Shown piece by piece: positions 1-12,039 of a stretch of 12,049 nt of DNA. Source of the stretch: Planctomycetota bacterium (GTDB lineage: Bacteria > Planctomycetota > UBA1135 > GCA-002686595); the NCBI GenBank assembly GCA_011524785.1, contig WTJQ01000004.1:1-12049 (forward strand), written 5' to 3'. The stretch's first letter is position 1. Each line of letters begins with the position of its first letter. The notes below the pieces were generated by a model that saw nothing but the letters and a program-made list of their open reading frames with translations, did no database searches and was not told where the DNA came from. The position numbers and the translations under genes are program-made.

Positions 1-1070
1 TCCTCACCCTCCTCGCGGGGCTGGCTCCCCAGCCCCTCGCCGCCCCGCTGCCGGGCGACGCCGTCGTCGTCCAGGCGACGATGGTCCACACCGCTGATGC
101 GGCCATCGAGAACGGCCGCGTCCTGATCCGCGACGGTCGCATCGAGGCCGTGGGTCCTGACGTCGGGGCCGGCGAGCGCCTGATCGAGGTCGAGGGCCAC
201 CTCACCGCCGGCATGGTCGTCCTCGGGGACCGCACGAGCCTTGGCGCCGAGGCGCGGGACGAGACGCGGCAGGTGATGGACACGGCCGACCTCGTTCACG
301 GATACGACGCCGAGAGCAAGGACTGGGCGCCGTTCCTGGAGGCGGGCGTCACCGCCGTGCTGCTGACCCCGGAGGCGGGCGCCCTCGTGGGCGGTCGCAC
401 CGCGGTCGTCAAGCCGGGCGGGGCCGTGATGAGCCCGCGGGCTCACCTCGACCTCTGCTTCTCGACCGCCGCGTTCCGTGACGGCGTGGCGCCCAGCAGC
501 TACCCGGGTGCCCTCGCCATGCTCGAGGAGCACATGGCCGGCGGGGCTGGCGGCTTCGGGCTGATCAAGGACGGCCTGCCCGTCCACCTGTCCGCGCGGA
601 CGCGGGCCGAGGGGCTGCGTGCGATCGCCTTCGCGCAGCGCCACGGCCTGAAGGGCGCGCTCAGCGGAGTCGCCCGCGCGGGCGACCTGGCCCCCGAGCT
701 GAAGGAGGCTGGCCTGGCCGTGATCCTGCCGCCCCTGGGTCCGGGCTCCGACCCGCGCCACGCGGCCTCGGCCGCGGCGCTCGCGAAGGCCGGCGTGCCG
801 ATGGGCTTCAGCCTCGACGCCAAGAAGGCGTCCCCGACCGCCCTGCGCTTCACTGCCGCGCAGTGCATGAAGGCCGGGATGCCCCGCGCCGCGGCGTGGT
901 CCGCCCTGACCAGCCAGGCCGGCGCCATCAGCGGCACGACCGCCGGGAGCCTGGCGCCTGGGAGCGCCGCGGACCTCGTGCTCTGGAGCGGCGATCCGCT
1001 CGATCTCACCAGCCGCGTGGAGCGCGTCTGGATCGACGGCGCTGCCGTCCACGGAGGTGACGACCAATGA
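1..1070 (+). CDS. Exported amidohydrolase-like protein, metal site degenerate (gene 1, 5' partial)
   Basis: The reading frame is open from base 3 to the TGA at 1068-1070 (355 visible residues) and its start lies left of the window. The ATG at 81 is internal: the codons before it encode the end of a signal peptide (LTLLAGLAPQPLAAPLPGDA). Comparison with gene 2 suggests only a few residues are missing. The N-terminal beta strand (VLIRDGRIEAVG), a GVTA motif and the C-terminal AADLVLWSGDPL strand place it in the imidazolonepropionase-like amidohydrolase superfamily. The strand-1 motif PGLVxxHxH is replaced by AGMVVLGDR, so both His are lost, with Gly at the first and Arg (visible residue 77) at the second. 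The later His positions are also changed (SARTR, LSGVA). An Asp in GFSLDA may correspond to the usual final Asp ligand. It is the shortest member of the cluster. I expect no normal hydrolase activity. The stop overlaps the gene 2 start by 4 bases. Confidence 0.9.
   Translation, partial: LTLLAGLAPQPLAAPLPGDAVVVQATMVHTADAAIENGRVLIRDGRIEAVGPDVGAGERLIEVEGHLTAGMVVLGDRTSLGAEARDETRQVMDTADLVHGYDAESKDWAPFLEAGVTAVLLTPEAGALVGGRTAVVKPGGAVMSPRAHLDLCFSTAAFRDGVAPSSYPGALAMLEEHMAGGAGGFGLIKDGLPVHLSARTRAEGLRAIAFAQRHGLKGALSGVARAGDLAPELKEAGLAVILPPLGPGSDPRHAASAAALAKAGVPMGFSLDAKKASPTALRFTAAQCMKAGMPRAAAWSALTSQAGAISGTTAGSLAPGSAADLVLWSGDPLDLTSRVERVWIDGAAVHGGDDQ
1053..1060 (+). promoter_or_regulatory. Shine-Dalgarno site of gene 2
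   Basis: GGAGGTGA lies 6 bases before the ATG at 1067, inside the last codons of gene 1. It fixes the gene 2 start and, with the ATGA stop/start overlap, implies translational coupling of genes 1 and 2. Confidence 0.8.
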
Positions 1071-2269
1071 TCCTGACCACCCTCATGGCGGCGGCCGCGC
1101 CCGCCCTGGCCGGCGGAGGCACGGGCGTGAGCCTGATGGTCCACGCCGAGTACCTGCACGTCGGGCCCGGCGAGGTCGTCCGCAACGCCCTCGTCCAGGT
1201 GGACGAGGGGCAGATCGTCGCCGTCCTTCCCGGCCGCAGCGCTCCTGACGGCGCGCTCTCCGTCCACTCGGCGATGGCCGGGATGGTCGACGCCAGCGCT
1301 CGTACGACCGGTGACCCTTCGGCAGTCGAGCAGTCAAAGGAGATCATCACCCAGCTCTCCGTCCAGGACGCGCTCGATCCGTTCGACCCCGCCTGGGGTC
1401 GCCTCGCGCGCACCGGGGTCACCACCGCCCTGATCGCCCCGCCCGACCTGAACGTCATCGGCGGGCTCACGGTGGTGGTGAAGACCGCTGGCGCGCCGCG
1501 CCTCGAGGGGCGCGTGCTGGAGGGCAAGCCCATCCTCCGAGGCGCGATCGGCGACCAGCCGAGCGCCCGCAACTCGCCCGCCTTCGGCCGGCCGCGCAAC
1601 TACTTCGCGCGCCGTCCCACGACCCGCATGGGCGTGGAGTGGGAGTGGCGCAAGGCGTTCTTCGACGCTGGCCAGGCCGAGCGCTTCCCCGAGGCCGACT
1701 TCGAGGGCGCTGACGTGCTCCGCGCCTGCCTCAAGGGCGACGTGCGCGTGATGATCCAGGCCTGGACCACGGCCGACATCCGGACCGCCTGCTACCTCGA
1801 CGAGGAGATGCAGCGTGAGGGCTACGGCGACCTCGACCTCGTGATCGACGCCGGCGCCGAGGCCTGGAAGGAGCCTGCCTTCCTCCAGCGCACCGGCACC
1901 TCGGTCGTGCTGCCGCCCTTCCCGGCCTCGGGTCGCAGCGGCGAGCGCTCCTTCATGCCCTGGAACACCGCCCGCGTCCTCCTGGACAAGGGCATCCCGG
2001 TCGCCCTGTCGGGCCACGGCGGGACCTCCCCGAAGACGCGCCTGGGGGACCAGGCCGGCTTCGCCATGCGCGGCGGCCTGACCTTCGACGAGGCCCTCGC
2101 GGCCGTCACCACCACCCCCGCGGCGCTCCTCGGCGTGGAGCAGCGCGTGGGTCGGGTCGCGGCCGGGATGGACGCGGACCTGGTCCTCTGGAACGGCCGG
2201 CCCTTCGAGGCCACCAGCGCCATCGTCGGTGTCGTCGCCAGCGGCGACGTCGTCCTGCAGCCCCGCTGA
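1067..2269 (+). CDS. Exported amidohydrolase-like protein, metal site lost (gene 2)
   Basis: A 400-residue protein. The start is set by a strong ribosome site and a 4-base overlap with gene 1. Residues 1-17 form a short, uncharged leader (MILTTLMAAAAPALAGG). Residues about 22-70 make the N-terminal beta-sandwich strands, GVTT at 117-120 begins the next barrel strand, and residues 362-380 (GRVAAGMDADLVLWNGRPF) are the C-terminal family signature. By alignment to genes 5 and 6, every metal-ligand position is altered: HxH becomes Ser77 and Arg79 in AGMVDASAR, the Lys position reads ILRGAIGDQP, and the later His and Asp positions read IQAWT, IDAGA and LSGHG. The protein is therefore predicted to be a non-catalytic envelope protein with the amidohydrolase fold. 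The family call is firm. Loss of catalysis is inferred, since an unusual metal site elsewhere cannot be excluded. Confidence 0.95.
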   Translation: MILTTLMAAAAPALAGGGTGVSLMVHAEYLHVGPGEVVRNALVQVDEGQIVAVLPGRSAPDGALSVHSAMAGMVDASARTTGDPSAVEQSKEIITQLSVQDALDPFDPAWGRLARTGVTTALIAPPDLNVIGGLTVVVKTAGAPRLEGRVLEGKPILRGAIGDQPSARNSPAFGRPRNYFARRPTTRMGVEWEWRKAFFDAGQAERFPEADFEGADVLRACLKGDVRVMIQAWTTADIRTACYLDEEMQREGYGDLDLVIDAGAEAWKEPAFLQRTGTSVVLPPFPASGRSGERSFMPWNTARVLLDKGIPVALSGHGGTSPKTRLGDQAGFAMRGGLTFDEALAAVTTTPAALLGVEQRVGRVAAGMDADLVLWNGRPFEATSAIVGVVASGDVVLQPR

Positions 2270-2333
2270 TCGCTCCGCGCCCCCTTCGCAACGCATCCCC
2301 GCGACGCACGCTCTACCGAACACCCTCCTCACC
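2270..2333 (+). other. Spacer between genes 2 and 3, no Shine-Dalgarno
   Basis: These 64 bases are C/T-rich and carry no purine-rich ribosome site, hairpin or promoter-like boxes that I can see. The last bases read CACC directly before the ATG, a context shared with gene 5. Confidence 0.5.
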
Positions 2334-3740
2334 ATGAAGCCCCACCTCCTCCACCGCCTCACCGCGGTCCTCGCCCTCACCGCCGCCGCCCACGCGGGCG
2401 ACAGCTACGCCGTCAAGGCCGGCACCGTCATGACCATGGGGGGCGACCCCATCGAGAACGGTGTGATCGTCATGCAGGACGGCCGGATCACGGCCGTTGG
2501 CAAGGACGGCGAGGTCGAGATCCCCTGGGACGCCGAGGTCTTCGAGGCCCCGGACCTGGTCGCCTTCCCGGGCATGGTCGAGGCCTGCATCTCCGGCGGG
2601 ATGGACCGGCCCAACGAGTCGGTCGACGTCACCCCCTTCCTCGACGTCAACGACTCGATCGACCCGGTCAACTTCTTCTACGAGGACATGCGCCGCGCGG
2701 GCGTGACGACCATCAACGTCCAGCAGGGTGACGAGACCGTCATCGCGGGGCGCGGCATGGTCGTCAAGCCGAGCGGCATGACCGTCGAGGCGATGATGGT
2801 CCGGCCCCAGTCGGGCATGAAGATCAGCGTCGCCCCCAAGCGCGGCAAGTCGCGCGCCGTGCAGCTGATGATCCTGCGCAACGCCTTCGCCGACCTCCGC
2901 CGGACCCTGGAGGGCATGGTCCAGGAGAAGCAGGACGAGGTCGCCAAGGCGCGCCGCGAGGCCCTCGCCCAGGGCCGTGACTTCGAGGAGCCCAAGCCGG
3001 CCGGCCGCGCGATGGAGGGCAGCGGCTGGAAGCTCGAGGGCCTCGAGTGGGTCGACCGCTCGACGATCGACGCGAAGCTGCTGCCGCTGCTCGACGTGGT
3101 CGAGGGGCGCCTGCCCATCTACCTGAACTGCGAGACGCCGATGGACGTCCTCCACGGCCTCGCCATCGCCAAGGAGAACGGCTTCCTCGCCCAGACCGTC
3201 CTCATGATCGGCGCCTCCTGCTGGAAGGTCTCCGACCAGATCAAGGAGGCCGGGGTGCGCGGCGTCGTCCTGCCCCTCCAGCTCGAGCACACCGAGCGAG
3301 CCCCCTTCGCCGAGGAGGACACGGTCACCCTGCTCCCCGAGCACTTCGCGGAGAAGGGGATCCCCTTCGCCCTGCGCTCGGCCAACAGCACGACCGAGTC
3401 CCTCTGGTACCAGGCCGCTCGCTGCGTGGCGCTCGGCGTCGACCGCCAGCAGGCGCTCGAGGCCATCACCACCATGCCGGCCGACCTGATCGGTCTCGGC
3501 AGCGACGTCGGCTCCCTGGAGCCGGGGCACCACGCCAACATCGTGCTGCTCAGCGGCGACCCGCTGTCCCTGCAGAGCACCGTCCAGTACGTGTTCGTCG
3601 AGGGGCGCATGATCTACGACCGCTCGCAGGACACGCGCCTGCAGCACCTGCTCGAGGGCGTGGAGCCCGAGGGCGTCTCCGCCGACGAGCCCGTCGTCAC
3701 GGACATCCACGAGGAAGAGCGCAAGGCCGGCGGGGAGTGA
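2334..3740 (+). CDS. Exported amidohydrolase-like protein, metal site degenerate (gene 3)
   Basis: A 468-residue protein. The frame is open upstream into gene 2, but the ATG at 2334 is chosen because it begins a standard Sec signal peptide (MKPHLLHRLTAVLALTAAAH, cleavage near AHAG) with a charged n-region and does not overlap gene 2. Strands typical of the N-terminal beta-sandwich follow (VIVMQDGRITAVG, 44-56), then GVTTINV at 123-129 and the C-terminal signature at 392-411 (GSLEPGHHANIVLLSGDPL). The HxH motif is replaced by PGMVEACIS (Cys85, Ser87). A Lys in GMKIS (163) falls where genes 5 and 6 carry their conserved Lys. The later His and Asp positions read LNCET, MIGAS and LRSAN. Residues about 190-240 are an expanded, highly charged insertion, and the C-terminus (441-468) is an acidic tail. 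It is probably not a working metallohydrolase. Confidence 0.95.
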   Translation: MKPHLLHRLTAVLALTAAAHAGDSYAVKAGTVMTMGGDPIENGVIVMQDGRITAVGKDGEVEIPWDAEVFEAPDLVAFPGMVEACISGGMDRPNESVDVTPFLDVNDSIDPVNFFYEDMRRAGVTTINVQQGDETVIAGRGMVVKPSGMTVEAMMVRPQSGMKISVAPKRGKSRAVQLMILRNAFADLRRTLEGMVQEKQDEVAKARREALAQGRDFEEPKPAGRAMEGSGWKLEGLEWVDRSTIDAKLLPLLDVVEGRLPIYLNCETPMDVLHGLAIAKENGFLAQTVLMIGASCWKVSDQIKEAGVRGVVLPLQLEHTERAPFAEEDTVTLLPEHFAEKGIPFALRSANSTTESLWYQAARCVALGVDRQQALEAITTMPADLIGLGSDVGSLEPGHHANIVLLSGDPLSLQSTVQYVFVEGRMIYDRSQDTRLQHLLEGVEPEGVSADEPVVTDIHEEERKAGGE

Positions 3741-3758
3741 CCCGAGGCACTGCCACCC

Positions 3759-3763
3759 AGGAG
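3759..3763 (+). promoter_or_regulatory. Shine-Dalgarno site of gene 4
   Basis: AGGAG sits 5 bases before the ATG at 3769, within the 28-base gap after gene 3. It supports that ATG even though the resulting leader is short and uncharged. Confidence 0.7.
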
Positions 3764-3768
3764 CAAGC

Positions 3769-6534
3769 ATGCTGACCATCCTCCCCCTCCTGCTCGCCGC
3801 GGCCCCCGTCGGGGACGCCGTGCTCGTGCGCGCAGGGACCATCCACCTCGTGGGGGACGGCACCGTCCTGAAGGACGGCGCCCTCCTGATCGAGGACGGC
3901 AAGATCGTCGAGGTCGGTGACCTCGAGGCGCCGGCGGGCGTGCGCGAGGTCGACTACGGCCCCGACGCCACCATCGTCCCGGGCCTCGTCGCGGCCGACA
4001 GCCGCTACGGACAGGGCCCGGCGGCTGCACGCGCCGCGTCGCCGATGCTGCGCGCCGCCGACAACTTCGACGTCTTCTCGCGCTACAGCAGCGCCCTCTC
4101 GGGCGGCGTGACCACGGCCTACCTGGCTCCGGCGGACGACCGCCTGATCGCCGGTCAGGGCGGGGTCGCCAAGCTGGCGGGCGAGGCGGACATGAGCCGC
4201 TTCCTGAGCGACAGCGCCGCCATCCACGGCAGCATCGCGACCGCCGCGCGCAGCACGCCTGGCTTCTGGGAGCCCCCGCTGCCCGCCACCGTGGACGTCG
4301 GCCTCGGCGTCGAGCAGCCGCAGCTGCCGCGCACCACCATGGGTGCGGTGGTCGGCCTCCGCGAACTCATGGCGTTCGCGGGTGGCGATCAGGAGCAGGC
4401 CAGCGAGTGGGGCAGCCTGACCGGCCCAGCGCTCGCCGAGCTGATGCAGGCCGGCCGCACCTGGCGCATGGGCGTCGACGACGCGCGCCAGGCGAAGGCC
4501 CTGCACGATCTCTTCGTCGAGGCGGGGCAGCCGCTCATCCTCGAGGCGAGCACCGGCGTGGTCGAGCTGGCCTCCGAGCTCGCGGCGGCCGGCATCTCCG
4601 TGATCTACGAGCCTGGCGGGCAGAAGCCCGAGCAGACGCAGAGCTTCAACTTCGGCGGCTTCCGTGGCCGGGGCTTCTCGGCGCCGACGCCTGCGGCCAG
4701 CTCGACCGGGGATCGCCGCACGCTCGGGGACGCCGAGGACCAGGCGACCGCCGCGCGGCTGATCGAGGCCGGCGTGAAGGTCGCCATCGCGACGCCGGAC
4801 TCCATGAACGTGAGCAGCCTGCTCCAGGCCGCCTCCATGGCGCGCCGGGGAGGCCTCTCCGCCGCGGATGCGCTCCGCGCAATCACCCTGACCCCCGCCG
4901 AGCTGTTGGGCGTTGCCGATCGCGTCGGCAGCCTCGCCGCCGGCAAGGACGCGGACTTCGTCGTGCTGAACGGCGCGCCCACCGAGCCGGGCGTGAGCGT
5001 CAACGCCACGTGGGTCGAGGGCGAGCTCCGCTGGGAGAGCAGCGAGCGCGCTCCCCGCGTGATCCAGGTCGAGGAGCTCCACCTCGGGGACGGCACCGTG
5101 CTGCGCCCGGGTGAGGTGCTCGTGTCCGGCGGCAAGATCGTCGAGGTCGGTGAGCGCGTGGGTCGTCCTCGCGGCGCCGTCCTCCACCGCGCCGCGGCTG
5201 CTATGCCTGGCGCCATCGATGGCTGGGGTCACCTGGGCGTCGATGGGAGCCGGAAGGGCTTCAACACGCGCTTCGACCTGTCGACGATCGTCGAGCCGGG
5301 CGATGCCGGCGACCACGCCGTCGCGGCCGCGGGGGTCACGACCGTGAACCTCGCCCCCTACAGCGTTGGGCACGGCACGCCCTCGATGACCTACAAGCCG
5401 GCGGGGGACCAGCCCTCCTCGATGGTGCTGGCCAACCCGACCGGCGTGTTCCTCGTCTGGAACAACGCGATTCCCAGCCTGGTCGGGAACCAGGTCCGGG
5501 GAAGCCTCGCCCAGGCCGCCGACTACGCCAAGAAGTGGCGCGAGTACGAGGAGGCCATGAGCAAGTACACCCCGCCCGCCCCCGAGTCGGACGACGACGA
5601 GGAGGACGAGGACGAAGGCGAGGAGGAGAAGGACGAGAAGAAGAAGAAGCCCAAGGACAAGCCGGACGCGATCCCCGCGACCGGGACCTGGAAGGCCGAC
5701 TCCATCCGCCTGCGCCTCCTCGACGAGGGCGGCACCCTCGAGGGCACCCTGCGTGCCCCGGCCTCGCCCGACCTCGTGCACCTGACGGGCACCCGCGAGG
5801 GCCACGACCTGACCCTCTCCGGCCCCGTCGGTCTCGAGACCATCGTCCTGACGCTGACCGAGGAGTTCGACGAGAACGACGTCGAGCGTCCGCGGCTGCA
5901 GGGCACGTGGAAGCTCGCTGGTGCCGAGGGTGACGGTGAGGCCCTCGATCTGCCGCGAACCGGCACCGACTACCCGGTCGTGCGCCGCCCCGAGCGGCGC
6001 AAGCAGCCGGAGGCCAAGGCTCCCAAGGGCCAGCCGCGGTCGCCCGGCATCAACCCCGACCTCGAGCCGCTGCGGCAGGCGATGATGGGCAACAGCCCCG
6101 TCTTCGTGCAGATCGGTGATGCCACGCAGCTCGACGCGTGCCTGGCGACCTTCAACCAGTTCGGTCTCAAGCCGATCCTGGTCGGGAGCACGGGAGTCAG
6201 CAGCCGCCACGCCTCGCGCATGGCGGGCGTCCTCATGACCTCGGTCACCTCCAGCGTCCCCAGCGGCGTGCCGGTGATGTTCCGCTCGAACGCGGAGCAG
6301 GCGACCGCCGACCTCCTGGACCAGGTCTCCATGGCCGTGGCCAACGGGCTCTCCCCCGCGGTCGCCGTGCGTGCCCTCACCGGGGACGCCGCGACCATGC
6401 TGAAGGTCCACGACCGCGTGGGCTTCCTCCGGGCCGGTCAGGACGCCGACCTGGTGCTCTTCGACGGCCCCCCGCTCCATCCCGCCAGCAGCGTCGTCGG
6501 CGTCCTCGTCGACGGTGAGGAGATCTCCGACTGA
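3769..6534 (+). CDS. Double-module exported amidohydrolase-like fusion protein with inserted beta domain (gene 4)
   Basis: A 921-residue protein, about twice the family length. Residues 1-14 are a short uncharged leader (MLTILPLLLAAAPV). Module A covers about 17-425: DGKIVEVG strand, PGLVAADSR at 71-79, GVTT at 113-116, and signature GSLAAGKDADFVVLNG at 387-402. Module B covers about 430-921: GGKIVEVG at 454-461, PGAIDGWGH at 480-488, GVTT at 522-525, and signature GFLRAGQDADLVLFDG at 885-900. Module B is split by an Asp/Glu- then Lys-rich linker (607-631) and a beta-rich insert (about 637-719) bounded by two GTWK motifs. In module A, HxH is Asp77 and Arg79; only Asp344 in TPDS may match a ligand. 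In module B, the first His is Trp486, the second is kept (His488), and the later positions are lost. Neither half should bind metal in the usual way. Fused double-module relatives are, to my recollection, found in other phyla, so fusion alone need not be recent. Confidence 0.95.
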   Translation: MLTILPLLLAAAPVGDAVLVRAGTIHLVGDGTVLKDGALLIEDGKIVEVGDLEAPAGVREVDYGPDATIVPGLVAADSRYGQGPAAARAASPMLRAADNFDVFSRYSSALSGGVTTAYLAPADDRLIAGQGGVAKLAGEADMSRFLSDSAAIHGSIATAARSTPGFWEPPLPATVDVGLGVEQPQLPRTTMGAVVGLRELMAFAGGDQEQASEWGSLTGPALAELMQAGRTWRMGVDDARQAKALHDLFVEAGQPLILEASTGVVELASELAAAGISVIYEPGGQKPEQTQSFNFGGFRGRGFSAPTPAASSTGDRRTLGDAEDQATAARLIEAGVKVAIATPDSMNVSSLLQAASMARRGGLSAADALRAITLTPAELLGVADRVGSLAAGKDADFVVLNGAPTEPGVSVNATWVEGELRWESSERAPRVIQVEELHLGDGTVLRPGEVLVSGGKIVEVGERVGRPRGAVLHRAAAAMPGAIDGWGHLGVDGSRKGFNTRFDLSTIVEPGDAGDHAVAAAGVTTVNLAPYSVGHGTPSMTYKPAGDQPSSMVLANPTGVFLVWNNAIPSLVGNQVRGSLAQAADYAKKWREYEEAMSKYTPPAPESDDDEEDEDEGEEEKDEKKKKPKDKPDAIPATGTWKADSIRLRLLDEGGTLEGTLRAPASPDLVHLTGTREGHDLTLSGPVGLETIVLTLTEEFDENDVERPRLQGTWKLAGAEGDGEALDLPRTGTDYPVVRRPERRKQPEAKAPKGQPRSPGINPDLEPLRQAMMGNSPVFVQIGDATQLDACLATFNQFGLKPILVGSTGVSSRHASRMAGVLMTSVTSSVPSGVPVMFRSNAEQATADLLDQVSMAVANGLSPAVAVRALTGDAATMLKVHDRVGFLRAGQDADLVLFDGPPLHPASSVVGVLVDGEEISD
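5587..5925 (+). other. Charged linker plus beta-rich insert inside module B of gene 4
   Basis: Residues 607-631 are nearly all Asp, Glu and Lys and are encoded by a purine-rich run. They are followed at about 637-719 by alternating hydrophobic strands bounded by GTWK motifs (639-642 and 712-715). The pattern suggests a small beta-barrel or sandwich placed in the barrel loop that is also expanded in genes 3, 7 and 8. I do not recognise the domain with certainty. Residues 720-765 form a second basic and proline-rich linker back to the barrel. Confidence 0.6.
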
Positions 6535-6559
6535 TCCGCTCCCCGAGCCAGGCTCCACC

Positions 6560-7912
6560 ATGAAGAAGACAGCTCTGCTCTCCCTCCTCGCTCTCGGCCT
6601 CGGCGCCTCCAGCGCCACGGCGGGCGACTTCGGCGGACGCCCCCGCGGCGGCGACTCCGTGCGCGCGTCCCTGGCGATCGCCAGCCAGGGCGAGGTCCAC
6701 CCGGGCGCCGTCGGCGGCCGCGGCCTCGCGATCTACTCCAAGAAGGTCGCGGTCTGCGAGTGGAACGGCCAGGACGTCATCAACAACGGCGTCGTCCTCG
6801 TGAAGGACGGCAAGATCGAGGCCGTCGGGAAGCGCGGCGAGGTCCTCCCGCCCCCCGACTACGCCCAGATGGACGTGGGTGACCAGTGGATCGTCCCCGG
6901 CCTGGTGGAGATGCACAACCACGTCGCGGGTCGCTTCGGCCTGAACGACACCGTCTACCTGGCCAACCCCGGTCTGCGTGCGTCGTCCGACGTCTTCGCC
7001 GGCAACGCGCAGCTGGACCTCGGTCTCGCCGGCGGCGTCACGACCGTCCTCTACATCCCGGGCTCGGGCTCCAACGTCGGCGGCCAGGGTGTGCTCCTCC
7101 GAACCGGCTTCAACACCTACGAGGAGTGCCTCATCAAGGATCCCGGCTCGATGAAGCTGGCCCAGGCAGGCAACCCGGAGCGCTGGCTGACCCGGCCGAA
7201 CCGCTCCTTCATGAACTGGAACACGCGGACCACCTTCCAGCGCGGCATCGCCTACGCGCAGGAGTGGGAGGCGTACGAGCGGGACGGCGGCGTGATGCCG
7301 CGCAAGGACCCCCAGTGGGAGATCTTCCGCCACCTGCGCAAGCGTGACGTCCACATCTCGACGCACACGCAGATCTACCAGGTCGTCCTGAAGACCATCA
7401 CGATGGTCCACGACCAGCTCGGGCTGCCGTTCTTCATCGACCACGGCACCTTCGACTCCTGGCGCGTCGCCAAGGAGGCCGAGAAGCGCGGCATCTTCGC
7501 CTGCCTCGGTCCCCGCAACATCGACGTCCCGGCGCGGGGCTTCATCCAGTGGAGCGGCTCGAACCCCGAGCGGGTCCAGGGCGTCGCCGCGGGCTACCAG
7601 AGCGAGGGCTTCACCCGCATCGGCTTCAACACCGACTCCCCCGTCATCCCCCAGGAGGAGCTGCAGCTCCAGGCGTCGATGGCCGTCCGGTACGGCTTCG
7701 ACGAGTCGAAGATGGCCACCCTGCGCGGCCTCACGATCGTCCCGGCCATGGCCGGCGGGATCGGCGACAAGGTGGGCAGCATCGAGGTCGGCAAGGAAGC
7801 CGACCTGCTGATCACGACCGGGGACATCACCGACCCCCGCCACTCGGTCGAGCTGGTCCTCCAGCTCGGCAAGGTGGTCTACGACCCGGCCCAGACCGGT
7901 CGTCGCTGGTAG
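6560..7912 (+). CDS. Exported metal-dependent amidohydrolase with intact active site (gene 5)
   Basis: A 450-residue protein. The ATG at 6560 starts a classical Sec signal peptide (MKKTALLSLLALGLGASS, cleavage near ATAG); a GTG at 6515 in the same frame would overlap gene 4 and bury the leader. All ligands expected of an imidazolonepropionase-like amidohydrolase are present: His119 and His121 in PGLVEMHNH, Lys199 in GSMKLAQAGNPERW, His269 in ISTHTQ, His295 in FIDHG, and Asp359 in GFNTDS. The Lys in a GNPxR context could be carboxylated to bridge two metals, as in other binuclear amidohydrolases. GVTT is at 159-162 and the C-terminal signature GSIEVGKEADLLITTGD at 406-422. Hydrolysis of a C-N bond in a cyclic amide or peptide-like substrate is the family expectation, but the substrate is not readable here. 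It is the close paralogue of gene 6, about half identical by eye in the barrel, and both end in RRW. Confidence 0.96.
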   Translation: MKKTALLSLLALGLGASSATAGDFGGRPRGGDSVRASLAIASQGEVHPGAVGGRGLAIYSKKVAVCEWNGQDVINNGVVLVKDGKIEAVGKRGEVLPPPDYAQMDVGDQWIVPGLVEMHNHVAGRFGLNDTVYLANPGLRASSDVFAGNAQLDLGLAGGVTTVLYIPGSGSNVGGQGVLLRTGFNTYEECLIKDPGSMKLAQAGNPERWLTRPNRSFMNWNTRTTFQRGIAYAQEWEAYERDGGVMPRKDPQWEIFRHLRKRDVHISTHTQIYQVVLKTITMVHDQLGLPFFIDHGTFDSWRVAKEAEKRGIFACLGPRNIDVPARGFIQWSGSNPERVQGVAAGYQSEGFTRIGFNTDSPVIPQEELQLQASMAVRYGFDESKMATLRGLTIVPAMAGGIGDKVGSIEVGKEADLLITTGDITDPRHSVELVLQLGKVVYDPAQTGRRW

Positions 7913-7940
7913 GCCGCTCTCCGCTCCGAGGCCCATCCCC

Positions 7941-9221
7941 ATGCACGCCATCCTCCGCAAGGCCCTCGCCGCCGGCGCGCTGACCCTGGTCGGCGCGGCG
8001 CCGGCCGTGGGCGTGCAGGAGGCGGGTGCGCCTGGCGGGCCGGGGCTGGCGATCCTCACCCAGAAGGCGCTGCTGGTCCCGCTCGAGGGGCAGCAGGTGC
8101 AGGACCACGCCGTGATCCTGGTGCGGGACGGCCTGATCGAGGCCGTGGCCCACCGCGACGACCTGGTCGTGCCCAGCGGCTACGAGGTGCGGGACGTCGG
8201 GGCCGACTGGGTCTGCCCCGGCTTCGTCGACCTGCACAGCCACATCGCGGGCACCCGCGGGCTGAACGACACCGTCTATCAGACCAACCCCGGCCTGCGG
8301 ATCTCGGCCACCGTCATCCCGCAGAACCCCGCCCTGCAGCTGGGCGTCGCCGGCGGCGTCTCGACGATCCTCTTCATCCCGGGCTCGGGCTCGAACCTCG
8401 GGGGTCAGGGCGTGCTCCTGAAGACCGGGCACGACTCCTACGAGGAGATGGAGATCCGCAACCCCGGCTCGGTGAAGATCGCGCAGGGGGACAACCCGAC
8501 CCGCTGGGGCTTCGGGATGCGGCGCTCGATGATGGCGTGGAACCTCCGCCAGGAGCTCTTGAAGGGCGTCGAGTACGCCCGGGCCTGGCTCAAGCACGAG
8601 ACGGATGGCGGCCCGGCCCCGCGCCGCGACGTCCGCTTCGACGTCTTCCGCGACCTCCTCACGCGGAAGATCGAGGTGTCGACGCACACGCAGTACTACC
8701 ACCTGGTGCTGACCACGATCACGATGCTGGCGCGCGACTTCGGCTTCGCGACCTACATCGATCACGGCTCCTTCGACAGCTACCTGACCACGCCGCTGGC
8801 GCTGGAGAACAAGGTCAACGCGATCCTGGGCCCGCGCGAGGTCATGGCGCCCTCGCCCCCGCGCTTCGACACCGACGGCCAGGTGCAGGGCTCGGCCTGG
8901 GGCTTCCAGAAGCTCGGCCACGACCGCATCGGCTTCAACACGGACGCCCCGGTGGTGCCCCAGGAGGAGCTCTCCGTGCAGGCCGCCATGGGCGTCCGCT
9001 ACGGCATGGACGATCGCAACCTGGAGGGCGTGCGGGGACTCACCTGCATCCCCGCGGTGACGGCCGGCCTCGAGCGCCAAGTCGGCAGCATCGTCCCCGG
9101 CATGCAGGCCGACCTCCTCGTCGTCACGGGCGATCCCGTCGACCCCCGGACCAGCGTCGAGCTCGTCCTCCAGGACGGCCAGGTCGTCTACGACACCAGC
9201 AAGAACAGGAGGCGTTGGTGA
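7941..9221 (+). CDS. Exported metal-dependent amidohydrolase with intact active site (gene 6)
   Basis: A 426-residue protein starting 28 bases after gene 5, with no clear ribosome site (CCCC precedes the ATG). The leader is MHAILRKALAAGALTLVGAA, with cleavage likely before residue 30. The ligand set matches gene 5: His99 and His101 in PGFVDLHSH, Lys179 in GSVKIAQGDNPTRW, His249 in VSTHTQ, His275 in YIDHG, and Asp335 in GFNTDA. Segments GLNDTVY, IPGSGSN-GGQGVLLKTG and VRYGMDD are shared with gene 5 and absent from the other modules. Genes 5 and 6 therefore form an active pair, probably from tandem duplication. The C-terminus ends RRRW, and its AGG AGG Arg codons create a consensus Shine-Dalgarno sequence before gene 7, unlike the CGT CGC used in gene 5. 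The reaction is probably metal-dependent amide or cyclic amide hydrolysis in the envelope; the substrate is unknown. Confidence 0.96.
   Translation: MHAILRKALAAGALTLVGAAPAVGVQEAGAPGGPGLAILTQKALLVPLEGQQVQDHAVILVRDGLIEAVAHRDDLVVPSGYEVRDVGADWVCPGFVDLHSHIAGTRGLNDTVYQTNPGLRISATVIPQNPALQLGVAGGVSTILFIPGSGSNLGGQGVLLKTGHDSYEEMEIRNPGSVKIAQGDNPTRWGFGMRRSMMAWNLRQELLKGVEYARAWLKHETDGGPAPRRDVRFDVFRDLLTRKIEVSTHTQYYHLVLTTITMLARDFGFATYIDHGSFDSYLTTPLALENKVNAILGPREVMAPSPPRFDTDGQVQGSAWGFQKLGHDRIGFNTDAPVVPQEELSVQAAMGVRYGMDDRNLEGVRGLTCIPAVTAGLERQVGSIVPGMQADLLVVTGDPVDPRTSVELVLQDGQVVYDTSKNRRRW
9207..9212 (+). promoter_or_regulatory. Consensus Shine-Dalgarno at end of gene 6
   Basis: AGGAGG lies in the last codons of gene 6, 8 bases before an ATG at 9221 that overlaps the gene 6 stop by one base (TGATG). 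That ATG is in frame with gene 7 and would add 28 residues before its leader. The site may load ribosomes at 9221, or support coupling to the downstream start at 9305. Confidence 0.6.
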
Positions 9222-9304
9222 TGCCTCTCCCCCAAGGAACCCTCCAGCGCACTGCTCCTGACCACCCCAACCCCGTGCCGGTGGCGGCGCGGACCCGTGC
9301 AACC

Positions 9305-10537
9305 ATGATGCTCTCCACCCTGCTCCTGGCCGCCGCGCCGGCCGTCAGCGCACCCGCGGGGGACCTCCTCGCGATCCGCGCGCGACACCTCGCGACCGGT
9401 ACCGGTGAGACCCTCGAACACGCCGTCGTCCTCGTCGAGGACGGCCGCATCGTCACGGTCGGTGAGGACCTCCCGATCGAGCGCGGCATCCCCGTGCTCG
9501 ACCTCGAGGAGGAGGTCTGGGTCCTGCCCGGACTCGTCGACGCCTACTCGCGCTACGGCCTGTCCGGGTCGGGCTTCTCCGACCTCCGCCCGTACATCCA
9601 GGCCGCTGACGAGGTGCGCCTGGACGACTCGTCCTGGGCGCGCGGCATGCGCCAGTACGGAGTGACGACGGCAGCCTTCTACCCGGCCGGGCGCGGGATC
9701 CCCGGGCAGTCGGTCGTGGTCGCCACGGGCCCCACCCCCGAGGGCTCGCGCGTGCTGCGCCGCAGCGCCTACCTCAAGGCCCTCGTCGGCAACGACTCGA
9801 CCAGCAAGCGCTACCTGCGGGACGGCTTCAAGGAGGCCGACGAGTGGCTCGACAAGGAGGCCAAGAACCGCGAGAAGTACGACAAGGCCAAGGAGAAGGC
9901 CGAGAAGGAGAAGGACTCCGACAAGAAGAAGGCCGAGCTCGCCAAGCTGGGCTCCTACAAGCCGCTGCCCCCGAACATGAAGGGCCAGGCCTTCCTCGAC
10001 CTGCGCGCGGGCAAGATCGAGCTGCTGGCCTCCATCAACAAGGCGGCCGACTACCTCCACTTCCTCGACGCCCTTGGGGACGAGGACGTGTCCTGGCACC
10101 TCCGGACGAGCCTCTCCACCGAGAGCGACCTCTTCCACGTGAAGGAGGAGATCGGTGAGGCCGGCGCGATGGTGATCATCGAGCCCGAGATCACCCTGCA
10201 CCCCTCCACCATGCGGCAGCGCAACCTGCCCGCCGAGCTGCACCGGGCCGGGGCCAAGCTGGTCCTCATCCCCCGTGCGGACAACTCGACCGGCATGAAG
10301 GAGTGGTTCCGCGACGTGGGCGTGATGGTCTCGGCCGGCCTGGACCGTGACGCGGCCATCCAGGCCATGACCCACCACCCCGCGGCACTGCTCGGGGTGT
10401 CCGACCGCGTGGGCACGATCGAGGTCGGCAAGGACGCCAACCTCGTGATGCTCACCGGGGACCCGTTCGAGGCCGGCACCGAGGTGCTCGCCGTCATGGC
10501 CGGAGGCTCCGTGGTCTTCGGGGAGGACGAACTGTGA
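9305..10537 (+). CDS. Exported amidohydrolase-like protein, metal site degenerate, charged helical insert (gene 7)
   Basis: A 410-residue protein if started at 9305. That ATG begins a leader (MMLSTLLLAAAPAVSAPAG) aligning with the leaders of genes 2 and 4. The codons between the upstream in-frame ATG at 9221 and 9305 have far fewer G/C third bases (about 20 of 28) than the gene body, so I favour 9305; the 9221 start has the better ribosome site and gives 438 residues. DGRIVTVG (46-53), GVTT (119-122) and GTIEVGKDANLVMLTGDPF (370-388) mark the family. HxH is replaced by Tyr81 and Arg83 in PGLVDAYSR. Lys158 (LKALVGN) and Asp327 (RADNS) may match ligands of genes 5 and 6, but both later His are lost. 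Residues about 177-215 form a Lys/Glu-rich predicted helix inserted in the barrel. It is probably not a normal hydrolase. It overlaps gene 8 by 4 bases. Confidence 0.94.
   Translation: MMLSTLLLAAAPAVSAPAGDLLAIRARHLATGTGETLEHAVVLVEDGRIVTVGEDLPIERGIPVLDLEEEVWVLPGLVDAYSRYGLSGSGFSDLRPYIQAADEVRLDDSSWARGMRQYGVTTAAFYPAGRGIPGQSVVVATGPTPEGSRVLRRSAYLKALVGNDSTSKRYLRDGFKEADEWLDKEAKNREKYDKAKEKAEKEKDSDKKKAELAKLGSYKPLPPNMKGQAFLDLRAGKIELLASINKAADYLHFLDALGDEDVSWHLRTSLSTESDLFHVKEEIGEAGAMVIIEPEITLHPSTMRQRNLPAELHRAGAKLVLIPRADNSTGMKEWFRDVGVMVSAGLDRDAAIQAMTHHPAALLGVSDRVGTIEVGKDANLVMLTGDPFEAGTEVLAVMAGGSVVFGEDEL
10521..10527 (+). promoter_or_regulatory. Shine-Dalgarno site of gene 8
   Basis: GGGAGGA ends 6 bases before the GTG at 10534. 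Together with the GTGA overlap with the gene 7 stop, it supports GTG as the true start and coupled translation. Confidence 0.75.
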
Positions 10538-11985
10538 TCAAGCTCAAGCTGAAGACCCTCGCGCCCCTGGCGCTCCTCCTCGCCGCGGTCCCCGCGGCGG
10601 CGCTCCAGCCCCTCCCGCTCCTCGACGACGAGGCGACGGAGTCCGAGGAGGAGGACGAGCACTGGGTGCTCCTCAAGGGGGGCGACGTCTACACCGGCAC
10701 CGGAGCCCTGCTCCGCAAGGCGGACGTGCTCTGCCGGGACGGGAAGATCGCGGAGATCGGGTACGACCTGTACGCGCCCGAGGAGGCCGAGGTCATGGAG
10801 ATCTCCGGCTACCGCGTCTACCCGGGCCTCGTGGCTCTCGAGTCCCGTGGCCTCTTCGGGGGCAGTGGCTCACTCAAGGACTCGGTCGATCCCTTCAACG
10901 AGTCGATGACCTATGCCGTCGCCAGCGGGATCACCACCGCGGTCAACGGATCCGAGATCGGCAAGCTCAACCGCGGTCGCCTCGAGGACGTGCTCGTGAA
11001 GCGCGGCACCTTCGTGGGCCTCAGCTACTCCATCTCGAACCCCTCGGGACGCGGCAGCCTGCGTGAGAAGCTCGAGGCCGCCGCCGCCTACCTGCGGACC
11101 TATCGCGAGTGGCAGGTGCAGGTCCGGTCCAACAAGGACCTCAAGGAGCCCAAGAAGAGCGGCGTCGACTCGAACGTCCTCGCCGTCCTCGAGGGCAAGG
11201 CCCGTGCCCTGTTCAGCTCCGACGAGCAGCAGGACCTGGTCGGCATCGCACGCCTCGCTCAGGAGTACGGCTTCCGCCCCGTCATCAAGGGCTGCCGGGA
11301 GGGCTGGATCGTAGCGGACGAGCTCGGTCGGGCGGGTGCCTTCGCCATCATCGAGGCCCGGGACCGCCGCTCGAAGAACGAGGCCCTCGTCCGGCCCGGC
11401 GGCTCCTCGATCGAGAACGCCGCGATCCTGCACCAGCACGGCGTTCAGGTCGCCGTCCTGCCCAGCTCGACCGGCATCAGCCTGGGCGGCATCGTCGGTC
11501 GCGACATCATGCACATGCCGACCGAGGCGGCCTTCGCCGTCCGCGGTGGCCTGCCGGAGGACGCGGCCATCGCCTCGATGACCACCATCCCCGCGCGCTT
11601 GCTGGGCCTGGGGCATCGCCTCGGCACGATCGAGGAGGGCAAGGATGCCGACCTGATCGTCACGGACGGGGACCTGCTGCACTACCGGACCTTCGTCCAG
11701 TGGGCCCTGGTCGGCGGGCGGGTCGTCTACGACAAGGAGGCCGAGCTCTACTTCGCCCACATCCGTCCGCGTCCGGATGGCGAGCTGGCGCCCGAGAGCC
11801 CCGTGGATCCCGGCGAGGACGACATCGTCGAGCCGCCCGCGGAGGAGCCTGAGGAGGAGCCGGCCGAGGAGCCCAGCGAGGGCTCGGGCGACGCGCCCAC
11901 TGAGGACTCCACCGAGCCGCCCCCCGCCGAGGGTGGATCCGGTGAGGGGGCCGAGGAAGGGCCGGCGGAGGACACCGCGGACTGA
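10534..11985 (+). CDS. Exported amidohydrolase-like protein, metal site lost, acidic C-terminal tail (gene 8)
   Basis: A 483-residue protein starting at GTG. The leader has a strongly basic n-region (MIKLKLKTLAPLALLLAAVP, cleavage near AAA), followed by an acidic patch at 31-42. CRDGKIAEIG (67-76), GITT (132-135) and GTIEEGKDADLIVTDGD (364-380) mark the amidohydrolase superfamily. HxH is replaced by Glu103 and Arg105 in PGLVALESR. The Lys position and later His and Asp positions read FVGLS, SSDEQ, IKGCR and LPSST, so no canonical ligand survives. After the last beta strand, residues 411-483 form a Pro/Glu/Gly/Ser-rich acidic tail containing short EEP-type repeats, probably disordered. The charged stretch at about 177-210 lies where gene 7 and module B of gene 4 carry larger inserts. 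It is the last gene before a strong hairpin. I predict a non-catalytic envelope protein. Confidence 0.95.
   Translation: MIKLKLKTLAPLALLLAAVPAAALQPLPLLDDEATESEEEDEHWVLLKGGDVYTGTGALLRKADVLCRDGKIAEIGYDLYAPEEAEVMEISGYRVYPGLVALESRGLFGGSGSLKDSVDPFNESMTYAVASGITTAVNGSEIGKLNRGRLEDVLVKRGTFVGLSYSISNPSGRGSLREKLEAAAAYLRTYREWQVQVRSNKDLKEPKKSGVDSNVLAVLEGKARALFSSDEQQDLVGIARLAQEYGFRPVIKGCREGWIVADELGRAGAFAIIEARDRRSKNEALVRPGGSSIENAAILHQHGVQVAVLPSSTGISLGGIVGRDIMHMPTEAAFAVRGGLPEDAAIASMTTIPARLLGLGHRLGTIEEGKDADLIVTDGDLLHYRTFVQWALVGGRVVYDKEAELYFAHIRPRPDGELAPESPVDPGEDDIVEPPAEEPEEEPAEEPSEGSGDAPTEDSTEPPPAEGGSGEGAEEGPAEDTAD
11764..11982 (+). other. Acidic, Pro/Glu-rich C-terminal tail of gene 8
   Basis: Residues 411-483 consist mainly of Glu, Pro, Asp, Gly, Ser and Ala. 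Imperfect EEP units occupy 436-450. No hydrophobic segment or sorting motif is seen at the C-terminus, so the tail is not an obvious membrane or secretion anchor. Confidence 0.7.
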
Positions 11986-12007: not shown

Positions 12008-12039
12008 GCGGCCCGTGCAGGACTTCCTGCACGGGCCGC
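12008..12039 (+). terminator. GC-rich hairpin, probable terminator of the cluster
   Basis: A perfect 15-base inverted repeat (12008-12022 against 12025-12039) folds as a 14-pair stem with an ACTT loop, starting 22 bases after the gene 8 stop. The bases after it (TACACTTCCC) give only a weak U-run, so Rho-independent termination is likely but not certain. The symmetry means it could serve a converging gene on the other strand, outside the window. Confidence 0.6.

Follow-up and report, generated by a model that had tools for sequence, protein, structure and literature searches.

Enzymes that work together with catalytically inactive relatives are already known in several settings. In the ClpP/ClpR core, the 20S proteasome and CCT, numerous paralogous subunits each occupy a set position and some of them lack an active site, but these assemblies have other folds and are not exported amidohydrolases. 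Within the amidohydrolase fold, the dihydropyrimidinase-related CRMP/DPYSL proteins are inactive paralogs that form tetramers; their PDB chains appear among the weak structure-database matches of the profiles described below, yet they are eukaryotic, have a signaling role and are not encoded in an operon. The COG1228 prolidases and carboxypeptidases, such as Cc2672 (3mtw, NCBIfam NF051886), belong to the same superfamily as our enzyme and give it a weak profile match, but the score lies far below the family cut-off, and we know of no degenerate partners for them. The Thermotoga maritima protein in PDB entry 3ooq, which we take to be the product of locus TM0814, has intact ligand residues in our alignment and shares a TRMG motif with one of our degenerate classes. 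Unlike the cluster, it is a single protein, and the ten chains in its entry are suggestive only; we found no paper giving its function or oligomeric state. In Pseudomonas aeruginosa aspartate transcarbamoylase, an inactive pseudo-dihydroorotase chain of amidohydrolase fold is reported to be required for the activity of the hetero-oligomer (PMC7053772); there, the active partner belongs to another family, only one inactive chain is involved and the complex is cytoplasmic. A study of secreted metal-dependent bile salt hydrolases (PMC13081902) concerns those enzymes, not sets of pseudoenzymes. The likeness to pseudo-dihydroorotase and ClpR concerns a possible mode of working, not membership. Pseudoenzyme partners as such are not new; eight classes of them around one exported enzyme in a fixed order are, and our literature search, with subscription papers mostly outside its coverage, found no description of such a system, in line with the first-pass annotation, which knew of none.

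The window analyzed here, 12,049 nucleotides long, is the entire contig C62 of a MAG with 652 contigs and 79% completeness, and the cluster is therefore truncated at its 5' end. Between positions 1 and 11985, eight tandem genes on the forward strand encode nine amidohydrolase modules, with intergenic gaps from g1 to g8 of -4, 64, 28, 25, 28, 83 and -4 nt. This tightly packed arrangement and its coordinates are confirmed as first annotated. The degenerate module g1 (3-1070) is open at the contig edge and retains a signal peptide remnant. It is followed by degenerate g2 (1067-2269), whose class motif RRPTTRMG (1610-1633) contains the residues R182, P184 and R187, kept in 66/66, 67/67 and 65/67 sequences of the g2 alignment, and by degenerate g3 (2334-3740). 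The double-module gene g4 (3769-6534) comprises two degenerate modules, g4a (3769-5046) and g4b (5047-6534), the latter with a charged, beta-rich insert at about 5659-5958. Beyond the enzymes g5 and g6 lie two further degenerate modules, g7 (9305-10537) and g8 (10534-11985), and from about 11764 g8 continues into a C-terminal tail that is acidic and rich in proline. Directly 3' of g8, a perfect 14-bp GC-rich hairpin without a T run (12008-12039, forward strand, z -6.2) is a candidate operon terminator; no RNA family reached its gathering score in the window. Seven of the eight proteins exceed at least one of the Pfam Amidohydro_1/3 cut-offs, and g1 falls 0.1 bits below both. In profile-profile comparison every one of the eight degenerate classes matches the intact class with an E-value of 7e-53 or better, placing the degenerate modules by homology among the barrels of the amidohydrolase superfamily, with the fold modeled for g2 alone. 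The shared DG-I, GVT(T/A) and ADLV motifs noted on first reading are present but are not strict, with variants DEGQI in g2, SGGKI in g4b, GVST in g6, GITT in g8, HANIV in g3 and DANLV in g7.

Only two window genes carry all six metal ligands (HxH, Lys, His, His, Asp), and alignments uphold the first-pass annotation on this point. In g5 (6560-7912) these are HNH at 6914-6922, Lys within 7151-7165, His within 7361-7372 and 7439-7450, and Asp within 7631-7642; in g6 (7941-9221), a second intact copy with 51% identity to g5, they are HSH at 8235-8243, Lys within 8472-8486, His within 8682-8693 and 8760-8771, and Asp within 8940-8951. The loci together hold 136 enzyme modules, of which 24 belong to a divergent type, g6x, leaving 112 others. 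The full set is present in 135 of the 136, the remaining one being truncated, and in 0 of 535 degenerate modules. In PDB sequence comparisons, g5 and the g2, g3 and g4 profiles all match the entry 3ooq best, and g5 scores far short of two described families, with 63 bits against a cut-off of 500 for Xaa-Pro dipeptidase (NF051886) and 43.8 bits against 298 for imidazolonepropionase (TIGR01224). The genes g5 and g6 probably encode an exported, metal-dependent amidohydrolase with a binuclear site. Enzyme copies number one, two, three, four and five in 37, 17, 8, 7 and 1 of 70 regions, some of which are cut, and the commonest set in other loci is accordingly one intact and eight degenerate modules (37/70 regions with a single enzyme).

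The cluster is conserved well beyond the window. Of 40 near relatives, 38 contributed one locus each (G005 and G026, whose top g5 match was weak, were left out), and 40 more loci were collected through the g3 profile; two of these from family f32 (L138 and L139) have another arrangement and were excluded from the class counts, as were L050-L052, which lie on the same contigs as G006, G002 and G004. About 26 family codes are represented among the resulting 76 loci, f41 and f65 only in part, and the named relatives are Planctomycetota MAGs and the complete genome of Poly30 (CP036434). In relatives an extra degenerate gene, g0, precedes g1, so the genus set comprises ten modules: the count of nine first given is correct for the window but one short for the genus. 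The full order is g0-g1-g2-g3-g4(a+b)-enzyme(1-5 copies)-g7-g8. By eye, we counted it as complete in 58 of 76 loci, with a contig end clipping g0 in a few of these; another 16 run into a contig end but keep the order in what remains, and two are split, with g0-g4 and enzyme-g7-g8 on different contigs (L105 and L141 in G211, L106 and L142 in G184). In distant families, where several modules match the wrong class profile, modules were named by position. One genome, G097, carries a second cluster copy on contig C63 (L146) besides that at L101. The genes are thus kept together, in conserved order, across much of the phylum, and the inactive chains are encoded and conserved together with the enzyme. 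An enzyme orthologue is found in 73 of 294 sampled phylum genomes (E <= 1e-100, the next group starting at 1e-86), making the cluster common yet far from universal, and the g3 profile at 1e-20 matches all 73, although some of these are weak hits that could represent different paralogs. We also looked for a conserved partner from another family and rejected the best candidate: the commonest flank, a Glycos_transf_3 gene downstream of the cluster (e.g. L053:16898-17962; Pfam was run on two), occurs in 17 regions, with 13 of the 14 members listed coming from the window's family or Poly30, and other flanking groups occur in at most five regions each.

We propose, as the reading we hold slightly better than even, that the cluster encodes an exported, 3ooq-like metallo-amidohydrolase that acts within a hetero-oligomer of its pseudoenzyme siblings. 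Under this model the exported enzyme and the exported paralogous modules of the eight classes without an active site would assemble outside the cytoplasm, each degenerate class would hold its own place and stabilize or position the enzyme, and the substrate would be peptide-like. All eight window genes begin with a signal-peptide-like stretch as judged by eye, that of g1 being cut by the contig edge. By a simple rule, export signals are present in nearly all members of most degenerate classes (g1 33/34, g2 35/38, g3 38/38, g4 39/41, g7 37/39, g8 38/39) and of the enzymes (72/74 and 22/24), compared with 34 of 252 flanking ORFs. Gene fusions point the same way. The modules g4a and g4b share one gene in the loci read, g0+g1+g2 are fused in L118, g0+g1 in L120 and L134, and g7+g8 in L124, at junctions that resemble linkers without a signal peptide; in L111, g3 and g4 stand in one frame across a signal-like stretch. 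Because the genes that fuse are neighbors, these fusions are modest evidence for contact between their products. The stoichiometry of the putative complex would not need to be strict, given the split clusters and the one to five enzyme copies. Further observations count against a complex: a single-copy Cytobacillus relative has no partners, the model of the double gene g4 is poor (pLDDT 49), and g0 carries an export signal in only 14 of 22 cases. The first-pass annotation had offered either a hetero-oligomeric machine or ligand-binding, scaffold or regulatory roles for the relatives; of this, the retention of pseudoenzymes stands, the conservation pattern and fusions lean toward the structural options, and the complex itself is a prediction.

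The alternative that survives best, though we consider it unlikely, is that the degenerate modules are ligand-binding or regulatory pseudoenzymes that act apart from the enzyme, with a retained pocket that binds a substrate or signal. The AlphaFold2 model of g2 (pLDDT 85.8) does show a full amidohydrolase barrel, with 3ooq as its nearest solved structure (TM 0.80), and five polar residues on its active-site face, E88, E92, N169, R182 and R183, are invariant; g3 retains its first ligand histidine in 52 of 69 members and the lysine in 60 of 69. (The g4 model, in which the packing of both modules is unreadable, reaches a pLDDT of 61-79 in the beta-rich insert of g4b.) Conservation of the active-site face argues the other way for most classes. 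Its loops are more conserved than the rest of the protein in the enzyme (0.673 versus 0.584) and in g6x (0.745 versus 0.641). In g0, g1, g2, g4a, g4b, g7 and g8 the relation is reversed, with the loops as the less conserved part (p 0.03 to 1e-6). For this comparison we delimited the face from the g2 secondary structure only, and alignment between classes is poorer in loops. This deficit in seven of eight degenerate classes favors a structural role over ligand binding, and independent binders would need neither a fixed gene order nor fusions. The deficit is absent in g3 (p = 0.51) and weak in g2 (p = 0.03), which also has the invariant polar residues, so these two classes may still bind something.

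It is improbable that some degenerate modules instead catalyze a reaction with a changed or metal-free site. Two g1 members (G060 and G027) keep five of the six ligands, and this partial retention, like that of the histidine and lysine in g3, could be read as residual chemistry, but it also points to stepwise loss from active ancestors. One ligand column could not be mapped in g0, g4a, g4b and g8, but their members retain no more than 1, 1, 3 and 1, respectively, of the remaining five (g0 and g1 of L111-L114, in which a spurious extra piece shifted positions, were excluded from these counts). A check for an alternative complete metal site, made at the level of the ligand columns, saw no conserved replacement set in any degenerate class, and the weak conservation of the face in seven of the eight also speaks against other catalysis. 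We give similarly little weight to the idea of an extended coat or surface layer made of these modules, with catalysis playing a minor part. The many exported copies of one fold, the acidic tail of g8 and the charged insert of g4b would suit such a structure, but Pfam found no anchoring or surface-layer domain in the eight window proteins, and the enzyme's ligands are strictly kept and the enzyme itself is often duplicated.

Nor, in our view, are these homologous, adjacent modules the decaying copies of an ordinary tandem duplication, a reading that we regard as refuted by open frames, by order and orthology across about 26 families and by low dN/dS. Between the window and G006, dN/dS is 0.165 for g3 (270 codons, part of the gene), 0.152 for g4, 0.202 for g7 and 0.152 for g8, compared with 0.075 and 0.103 for the enzymes g5 and g6 (for g1 and g2, G006 offers no sequence). 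Purifying selection acts on those degenerate genes that were tested. In a FastTree phylogeny of 191 modules, computed with long-branch warnings and including a second locus set that was labeled by position and then tree-tested, the enzyme class (E), g1, g2, g3, g4a, g7 and g8 can each be separated from all other modules by a single branch (support 87-100), while g4b requires two changes and g0 four. Most classes therefore seem to predate the divergence of these families.

Smaller combinations of intact and degenerate modules occur elsewhere. In 18 other phylum loci, selected for such modules, 18 intact and 27 degenerate modules are found. Each of the 18 loci combines one intact module with one or two degenerate ones, either as neighbors or within proteins that measure 851-1539 aa from stop to stop, and this pairing also speaks for the proposed complex. 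The fifth ligand column is off by one in 13 intact modules of the 18, all 13 of which have a His next to it. Two such sets lie in the window's own genome, on C501 (L095) and C13 (L096). Six genomes encode single proteins of 1461-1539 aa with the order degenerate-intact-degenerate: G088 (L138), G320 (L151), G108 (L152), G268 (L153), G258 (L156) and G248 (L157). The linker after the first module of L138 weakly matches the g4b profile in the region of the insert. Among plasmids from outside the phylum, a search returned a small and selected sample of seven records, four of which were inspected. In Qipengyuania and Novosphingobium (Alphaproteobacteria) a degenerate gene comes after an intact one; Hymenobacter has three adjacent genes, none reading as a complete intact enzyme and one short at its start, and the lone intact protein of Cytobacillus lacks a signal peptide. 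On the Qipengyuania citrea plasmid (L164, 2114-7114) the pair is flanked by genes for a peptide MFS transporter and an FKBP-type prolyl isomerase, which hint at peptide substrates. A more specific form of the model is possible, and we offer it tentatively: a nine- or ten-barrel hetero-oligomer with one of each module in a fixed arrangement, in which the one living enzyme type would be caged or positioned by eight dead classes, as the end point of a series, visible in living bacteria, that runs from an enzyme alone to an enzyme with one, two and finally eight dead siblings.

If the complex is real, one bacterial enzyme would be accompanied by more paralogous pseudoenzymes than in any other case known to us or found in our searches, and the stages with zero, one, two and eight dead partners would allow the growth of hetero-oligomer complexity to be traced step by step. 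The cluster is also a warning that profile-based annotation labels inactive proteins as amidohydrolases, and it provides a handle on an exported system in a largely uncharacterized part of the Planctomycetota.
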